From NCBI RefSeq assembly GCF_001019715.1, contig NZ_BBXJ01000001.1, positions 186,001 through 250,000 on the forward strand: DNA of 64,000 nt, given 5' to 3'. The DNA is from Rodentibacter caecimuris (GTDB lineage Bacteria > Pseudomonadota > Gammaproteobacteria > Enterobacterales > Pasteurellaceae). Within the stretch, counting starts at the first letter, position 1, and each line of letters opens with the position of its first letter. Below the pieces are notes generated by a model, which searched no databases, had not been told where the DNA came from, and saw only the letters and a list, made by a program, of their open reading frames with translations. Positions 57,672 to 58,228 of this stretch are shown here, piece after piece. The position numbers and the translations under genes are program-made.

Positions 57672-57701
57672 TTGACAGACTGTATGTAATAACAGTATAT
57701 T
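57672..57701 (+). promoter_or_regulatory. SOS promoter with LexA box in the spacer
   Basis: -35 TTGACA (57672-57677) and -10 TATATT (57696-57701), 18 bases apart. The LexA box CTGTATGTAATAACAG (57680-57695) fills the spacer and fits CTG-N10-CAG exactly. A second, one-mismatch box CTGTATAAATAACCAC lies at 57707-57722. LexA bound here would block RNA polymerase. Confidence 0.85.
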
Positions 57702-57741
57702 AATAACTGTATAAATAACCACTCAATTCAAAGGAAACAAG

Positions 57742-58188
57742 ATGATGAACCGCACAGATATGATTGCTCAAAATGATATGGCATTTTCTTATCATCCTAT
57801 GCCGTTTTTTAATGATGTTGGGGAAAGATTCACATTTAGTAAAAAGCTTGATTTGAACCTCTACTGTATCAAGCGCCCTCAGCAAACCTGCTTTATCCGT
57901 GTAACGAATCCGAACATGTTGGCTTGGGGAATTGAACAGGGTGATATGTTAATCGTCGAAAAAAATGAACAACTTTGTAGCGGCGATCTTGTTGTATTAA
58001 AAAGCGGAAGCGAATTTCATATATATGAGTTCATCACCTATGACGATGAGTTTGTCTTTATGGCACTAGACTCAAAAATGCAGAATATAAAAACAAAAAA
58101 CTGGGCAAACTTACCCCTTGTCGGAACCGTAACCAATACCATTCATCAAATTCAATCAAAGCGCAATACGTTAAAATTTGCAGCTTAA
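57742..58188 (+). CDS. UmuD/LexA-like S24 protein lacking the catalytic pair
   Basis: 148 residues. The S24 fold is clear: CFIRVTNPNMLAWGIEQGDML, then VEKNEQLCSGDLVVLKSGSEF. In UmuD the nucleophile lies in SGDSM, and here the matching residue is N58 (TNPNM). The catalytic lysine of UmuD (EFTVKKL) is replaced around Y95 (EFHIYEF). The N-terminal linker with the Cys-Gly cut site is also shortened. So it should not cleave itself, although it keeps an SOS promoter. No umuC follows. A terminator closes the single-gene unit. Confidence 0.82.
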   Translation: MMNRTDMIAQNDMAFSYHPMPFFNDVGERFTFSKKLDLNLYCIKRPQQTCFIRVTNPNMLAWGIEQGDMLIVEKNEQLCSGDLVVLKSGSEFHIYEFITYDDEFVFMALDSKMQNIKTKNWANLPLVGTVTNTIHQIQSKRNTLKFAA

Positions 58189-58197
58189 TCAGAAACA

Positions 58198-58228
58198 AAA
58201 AAGTGCGGTTAAAATTGACCGCACTTTA
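58198..58228 (+). terminator. Uptake-sequence hairpin after the UmuD-like gene
   Basis: AAAAAAGTGCGGT, 8-nt loop, ACCGCACTTT. It lies 10 bases past the stop. The rest of 58229-58411 holds a short CGCCA/TGGCG hairpin near 58340 and no gene. Confidence 0.7.

Follow-up and report, generated by a model that had tools for sequence, protein, structure and literature searches.

What does a UmuD-like protein do when it cannot cut itself and has no UmuC beside it? The question is raised by a gene of Rodentibacter caecimuris that lies in the 64-kb window analyzed here (positions 186001 to 250000 of contig 1 in a 2.72-Mb genome). We refer to this gene and its relatives as orphans, and the features of the locus are collected in Table 1.

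Table 1. Features of the orphan locus, numbered by position in the window
Feature	Positions	Strand	Basis or remark
Sigma-70-like promoter, TTGACA-N18-TATATT	57672..57701	+	11/12 matches
TTGACA hexamer	57672-57677		18-nt spacer to TATATT
TATATT hexamer	57696-57701
LexA box, CTGTATGTAATAACAG	57680..57695	+	Fills the 18-nt promoter spacer exactly
Degenerate second LexA box, CTGTATAAATAACCAC	57707..57722	+	6/8 core bases; 27 nt after the first box
Likely ribosome-binding site, AAAGGAAA	57730..57737	+	Sequence
Orphan UmuD-like pseudoprotease, 148 amino acids	57742..58188	+	PF00717, phrog_811, predicted fold
Arm motif SYHPMPFFND, residues 16-25	57787..57816	+	Aligned with UmuD arm (LPLF)
Shortened variable linker, residues 26-34	57817..57843	+	Cleavage-site region missing
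Codon of Asn58, catalytic Ser position	57913..57915	+	Alignment to UmuD'
Codon of Tyr95, catalytic Lys position	58024..58026	+	Alignment; 76 of 77 named loci have Tyr here and one has Phe
C-terminal Phe-Ala-Ala, ssrA-like tail	58177..58185	+	Family-wide tail counts

A sequence-only reading had assigned the S24 fold to the product, and our searches agreed. Homology to the S24/UmuD core was found with PF00717 (Peptidase_S24; 1.3e-16, above the cutoff), and there were matches to PHROG 811 (phrog_811, UmuD-like protein; 4.3e-18) and to the PDB sequence of UmuD' (7e-07). When the first predicted model was compared by Foldseek, the best PDB matches were UmuD', UmuD, and LexA, with the fold match to UmuD' 1ay9. 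Structures of UmuD and LexA on the RecA filament (PDB 8gmt and 8gms) were also among the sequence or fold matches. The curated UmuD model NF007621 failed (61.6 bits against a cutoff of 110), as did the HumD model NF051876 (31 bits against 120). By family-defining features the protein would not be called a UmuD; it appears to behave like a UmuD locked in the full-length form. AlphaFold models were confident in the core (block means of about 85 to 92) and unsure in the arm, where block means for residues 11 to 30 were 43 to 46 with 27 sequences and 51 to 60 with 65 sequences. Residues 22 to 24 form a strand in the 65-sequence model, which weakly hints at arm docking. The nearest named relatives of the protein, from Rodentibacter species, are 95 and 94% identical to it, which places the genome in Pasteurellaceae.

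Several sequence features suggest that self-cleavage has been lost. Pairwise alignment to UmuD' placed N58 on Ser60 and Y95 on Lys97, in the usual UmuD residue numbering. A profile alignment with 21 canonical UmuDs put a 7-residue gap on the cut-site stretch, CGFPSPA. The replaced Ser, the Tyr around the Lys position, and the shortened self-cleavage linker had all been proposed from the sequence, and each held. The loss also proved to be general, because none of 77 named Pasteurellaceae loci keeps the catalytic Ser or Lys. Homologues of this lineage with both residues intact would have counted against the sequence-only reading, and this outcome favors it. Their Ser position is occupied by Asn (60 loci), Asp (9), His (6), or Ala (1), with a gap in one broken-frame copy (L132). 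The linker between the arm and the LDLN start of the core could be parsed in 68 of 78 orphans. It is 10 to 19 residues long, and none of the 68 contains CG or AG, the cut site before FPSPA. Canonical UmuD linkers have 19 residues in all 20 that could be parsed (of 21), and 19 contain [CA]G. The canonical set includes several near-copies and was chosen by motifs, so its unaltered catalytic residues cannot be counted as independent evidence. Judged from sequence, the loss of Ser, Lys, and cut site together should make self-cleavage impossible. LexA of the same genome has both Ser and Lys intact, so their loss is not general to S24 proteins in that genome. These results support the view that the orphan descends from UmuD, is a pseudoprotease, and has a LexA-type promoter. 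The same genome also carries two near-identical S24 repressors, probably in prophages, at positions 1112446 and 1328060 of contig 1 (L134 and L135); L135 is cut by a TAG stop.

The perfect LexA box inside a promoter, as proposed in the sequence-only reading, was confirmed at its coordinates. It is the sole perfect CTGT-N8-ACAG in the window (0.42 expected by chance). However, 33 of 100 shuffled windows contained at least one such site, so the box by itself is weak proof. Promoter-like sites were no commoner in the window than in shuffles (2 against a mean of 3.8). Across the genome, one-mismatch LexA boxes numbered 27 per strand, no more than the 29 of a reversed-pattern control, and box scanning alone is therefore uninformative genome-wide. 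LexA-box-like sites at positions 2435284 to 2436635 of contig 1 repeat at multiples of 108 bases, and they are therefore probably part of a tandem repeat and not operators.

Comparison with relatives removed the objection that the box arose by chance. The best box within 200 bp upstream matched 8/8 core bases in 52 of 77 relatives, 7/8 in 24, and 6/8 in 1, so 76 of the 77 have at least 7/8. The corresponding counts in 1373 control windows were 3, 39, and 478. Nicoletella semolina (L124), a species without DinB, has a box of only 6/8. A TTGACA-like hexamer (5/6) starts 0 to 14 nt before the box in 65 of the 76 box-bearing relatives, compared with 106 of 1540 controls. The second near-match that the sequence-only reading had noted is present, but it reaches only 6/8 core bases. 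Two boxes that each reach 7/8 or better are present in 54 of 77 relatives, and 52 of their 66 spacings are 24 to 28 nt, so the near-match looks like a decayed second operator. We infer from these features that the orphan is under SOS control and would be induced by DNA damage. Directly after the orphan, at 58200-58227 of the window, is an inverted pair of AAAGTGCGGT, the Haemophilus uptake signal. On the minus strand, the pair was scored as a hairpin resembling a terminator.

The orphan is nearly universal in its family. A match (E <= 1e-6) was found in 138 of 140 Pasteurellaceae genomes. Because the sequences compared are related, neither this count nor the other counts among relatives given here are made up of independent cases. 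Two of the 138 copies are damaged, one with a broken frame beside a run of N (G424) and one with its 5' part replaced (G410). G410, from the genus that includes Aggregatibacter, has transposase- and resolvase-like ORFs in place of the 5' part of dinB as well as that of the orphan (L170; contig 36, positions 114500 to 120500). SstT neighbors the orphan in 56 of 77 loci. In the two genomes without a match (G025 and G166), SstT has no adjoining orphan in the stretches inspected. Both keep DinB and LexA, so the gene is dispensable there, and we rejected LexA loss as the cause of orphan loss. LexA matches were found in 137 of the 140 genomes; G478, G486, and G034 keep the orphan and had no LexA match at the cutoff used. 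Mean pN/pS was 0.11 for the nearest relatives (3 pairs), 0.13 for 8 Rodentibacter sequences (28 pairs), and 0.10 for 5 Haemophilus sequences (10 pairs). At about 0.1, these values indicate purifying selection on the coding sequence.

This distribution bears on whether the gene is a functionless, decaying relic of umuDC. The missing UmuC and the lost active site are what a relic would show. However, the near-universal occurrence, the low pN/pS, and the conservation of arm, core, tail, and promoter all oppose it, as does an orphan in a sister family whose genome carries a canonical umuDC elsewhere. Conservation together with a pN/pS of about 0.1 led us to reject a relic or pseudogene, and we give this disfavored idea next to no credence. 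A mobile gene was also rejected, because no phage record matches and SstT is the usual neighbor. A plasmid search returned at least 5000 records; all those listed had less than 60% identity, and 9 of the best 10 are annotated umuD. A defense system was rejected because there was no PADLOC match. One record titled Pseudomonas stutzeri NCTC11607 (L062; CABDVE010000001.1) holds an orphan 77% identical to ours in a Rodentibacter gene order, and its label is probably wrong.

To place the orphan among UmuDs, we searched 394 genomes of the order and 369 of the class. We inspected 23 outside-family matches in 22 stretches (L053-L055, L139-L148, and L152-L161) and left out 20 class-level matches; L144 and near-copies of the L079 type add little. 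Because the search was of samples, further orphans may exist. The best outside-family matches in the order sample were two orphans of the sister family f10, with canonical UmuDs close behind. One (L053; G045, contig 1, positions 1466269 to 1466685) keeps Ser and has Tyr at the Lys position, and the other (L152; G070) has Gly and Tyr at these positions. The two share the arm YRPVAFFND, and each has one or two LexA boxes. An ordinary umuDC (L054) is present in G045 as well, and its Ser, Lys, and cut site are intact. Since a sister-family orphan coexists with canonical umuDC, the orphan looks like a separate gene and not an umuDC remnant.

We built a tree from 27 of the 78 orphans, the 2 f10 orphans, 15 of the 21 canonical UmuDs (near-copies dropped), and the LexA of our genome. 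It separated the f10 and Pasteurellaceae orphans from the 15 canonical UmuDs with support of 100/97; long branches were flagged, and LexA was placed among the canonical UmuDs, so the tree cannot be taken as rooted. The orphan looks like an old separate branch. The two f10 sequences, and they only, suggest that Lys may have changed to Tyr first, and that Ser and the cut site were lost and the tail acquired afterward. L053 is a possible intermediate state.

We considered which partners are available to the orphan. No umuC adjoins it in the window or in the flanks of its relatives. As the sequence-only reading stated, none is adjacent; the sole PF00817 gene of the genome encodes a DinB elsewhere. 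This DinB has 355 residues, and about 52 nt upstream of its start is a LexA box with one mismatch to WACTGT-N8-ACAGTW. A PF00817 polymerase was found in 134 of 140 family genomes (our DinB was inspected directly, and the others were sorted by score and length). Canonical umuDC was found in 2 of the 140 (G495 and G465), on contigs other than the orphan's. The same reading had suggested that the orphan pairs with cut UmuD, and this rarity makes that unlikely as a general role. The umuDC loci of these two genomes (L172 and L173) are extra to the orphan and were probably acquired.

Six genomes had no PF00817 match: Haemophilus influenzae HI-5290 (G460), H. aegyptius (G461), G276 of the same genus, H. 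ducreyi (G018), Lonepinella koalarum (G475), and N. semolina (G314). A search with DinB found a C-terminal remnant of at most 43 residues in G460, G461, and G276 (L178, L179, and L177; E values of 7.4e-6, 0.025, and 4.1e-11, respectively). Nothing was found by this search in G018, G475, and G314, with G458 as a positive control. All six keep the orphan. With damaged copies counted as present, 132 of the 140 genomes have both genes, 6 the orphan only, 2 DinB only, and none neither. Therefore, DinB is not the sole partner of the orphan or the sole reason for keeping it, and the pattern suggests a partner found in every one of these genomes. Table 2 of PMC2734928 lists H. influenzae Rd KW20 as having dinB and lacking umuC and umuD, whereas HI-5290 has only the dinB remnant; either a strain difference or an error in that table would explain the discrepancy.

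These counts bear directly on the idea that the orphan is a manager of DinB, having kept only the second role of UmuD, which is to bind DinB (Pol IV) and suppress -1 frameshifts. DinB is the only Y-family polymerase of our genome and has its own LexA box. Furthermore, UmuD and RecA act on DinB to lower -1 frameshifts, as sections of PMC3901139 describe. The dinB gene lies within about 4 kb of the orphan in 6 of 77 loci, all in Aggregatibacter, and a shared role in that genus would fit this arrangement. Against this, the orphan persists in all six genomes without an intact Y-family polymerase (three with a remnant and three with none), two genomes have DinB without the orphan, and there was no co-loss among the 140. 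DinB as sole partner is ruled out, and we consider a role confined to managing it unlikely.

Part of the protein ahead of the core is strictly conserved. The arm consensus, SYxPxPFFxD, is nearly invariant: S16 is kept in 71 of 77 loci, Y17 in 75, P19 in 76, P21 in 75, and D25 in 75, and a variable linker follows. In the profile alignment, PMPFF was aligned with the canonical LPLF arm, to which it is similar but not identical. Experiments on the arm of E. coli UmuD are described in parts of PMC5342242. There, full-length UmuD disrupts the interaction between Pol III alpha and beta, and UmuD' hardly does so. UmuD missing 7 N-terminal residues retains this disruption, whereas UmuD missing 17 has weaker alpha binding and weaker alpha-beta disruption. 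The arms of UmuD T14A L17A F18A bind the globular domain weakly. UmuD is also included among clamp partners in sections of PMC3290774. Part of PMC4045847 argues that one cold-sensitivity effect of UmuD'C with the clamp does not come from physical interaction between them. Because the orphan is uncuttable and keeps the arm, it would be expected by homology to remain in the form that binds alpha and the clamp. In UmuD itself, the motif may serve in arm docking, in binding alpha, or in binding the clamp.

The arm also bears on a different explanation, in which the orphan is a decoy for the RecA filament. An uncuttable S24 domain would occupy the filament, slow LexA cleavage, and so provide negative feedback on SOS. 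Such a role would not depend on a polymerase and would agree with a gene under SOS control, and the solved structures of UmuD and LexA on the filament (above) speak for it. However, it leaves the strict conservation of the arm motif unexplained, and we judge it distinctly improbable, a little more so than DinB management.

At its other end, the window protein finishes in FAA, and this Ala-Ala end is common in the family. Among 78 orphans, 55 end in [LYFVIMW]AA, 58 in AA, and 73 in A. The corresponding numbers among 515 other ORFs of at least 150 amino acids, taken from the window and locus flanks and including many mutual homologues, were 3, 13, and 72. None of the 21 canonical UmuDs and neither f10 orphan (L053 and L152) ends in AA. 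The end is lacking in 20 of 78 orphans, 15 of which finish in SA, PA, VA, QA, or IA. Residues preceding the tail are mostly variable. According to sections of PMC7652416, a terminal Ala-Ala is the key element for ClpXP in the ssrA tag and likewise in other cellular substrates. In E. coli UmuD, residues 15 to 29 direct degradation by Lon and/or ClpAP, as part of PMC9382460 states, and part of the matching stretch is missing from the orphan. We infer that the protein's action may now be ended by ClpXP turnover in place of self-cleavage.

That the orphan is a conserved, LexA-boxed, uncuttable UmuD-like protein is nearly certain from its sequence. New relative to the sequence-only reading are its conservation across the family, its arm motif and Ala-Ala tail, and its persistence without an intact Y-family polymerase. 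That reading had offered two roles, a damage-induced checkpoint formed by the uncut protein or a regulator of LexA-like partners. The first appears to fit best, and the conserved arm motif makes it more specific; the second is weaker.

We propose that DNA damage would cause LexA to leave the promoter box and the orphan protein to be made. Having no Ser, Lys, or cut site, it should remain uncut and retain the N-terminal arm that ordinary UmuD discards. Through this arm it would most likely bind alpha and the beta clamp in the manner of full-length E. coli UmuD, and replication might thereby be slowed or disciplined during DNA repair. DinB, where present, may also be restrained. Since self-cleavage could not end this action, the off-switch would be re-repression by LexA together with rapid ClpXP removal through the hydrophobic-Ala-Ala tail. 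Action on Pol III and the clamp with ClpXP removal is the best-supported reading of these sequences. Even so, the proposal of a permanently full-length UmuD on Pol III alpha and the clamp (and on DinB if present), turned off through LexA and probably ClpXP, is tentative, and we rate it as quite possible rather than probable. The fuller scheme, in which the orphan is a family-wide, stand-alone replication checkpoint able to work without any translesion polymerase, self-cleavage has been swapped for an ssrA-like tail, and the steps occurred in order, is more doubtful.

Whether uncut UmuD has a checkpoint role of its own is difficult to establish in E. coli, because UmuD', UmuC, and DinB are present alongside it. 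There are bacteria in this family, including an H. influenzae strain, that have only the uncuttable form, and some species have no intact Y-family polymerase. In these bacteria, the checkpoint idea could be approached directly through one gene. If the proposal is true, the orphan would clearly exemplify how a switch based on self-cleavage can turn into a pseudoprotease and gain another off-switch. The family also contains many human and animal pathogens. We found no description of a Pasteurellaceae UmuD-like protein in the open-licence literature, subscription papers being outside the scope of the search. An H. influenzae gene annotated impA, after a plasmid UmuD homologue, may be this orphan.

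Several known proteins resemble the orphan in part. It shares with UmuD (NF007621/PRK10276, PHROG 811) the S24 core, the LDLN core start, and the LexA-type promoter, and its N-terminal arm motif aligns with the UmuD arm. Unlike UmuD, it has no Ser, Lys, cut site, or UmuC, mostly ends in [FYW]AA, and scores well below the curated UmuD cutoff. The f10 orphans of the same order likewise have LexA boxes, the arm, and Tyr at the Lys position. They differ in having Ser (L053) or Gly (L152), a longer linker, and no Ala-Ala tail, and G045 has canonical umuDC as well.

UmuDAb of Acinetobacter is, like the orphan, a UmuD homologue with a new role in the DNA damage response, as described in sections of PMC4807011 and PMC11332147. 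It is the precedent for a UmuD relative turned regulator, and a DNA-binding repressor of this kind is another conceivable role for the orphan. However, parts of PMC4807011 report that UmuDAb represses only with its N-terminal domain. The orphan has about 34 residues ahead of the core, in which no Pfam DNA-binding domain was found, and its host keeps an ordinary LexA with Ser and Lys. We therefore think a repressor very improbable.

Noncleavable UmuD made in the laboratory (S60A and UmuD 8 S60A) resembles the orphan in its locked form with the arm. According to sections of PMC5342242, E. coli UmuD 8 S60A binds tightly to the C-terminal part of alpha and disrupts the alpha-beta interaction. Those variants were engineered, with only Ser60 (and arm length) changed, and were made beside UmuC. 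In the orphan, by contrast, the locked state would be natural and family-wide.
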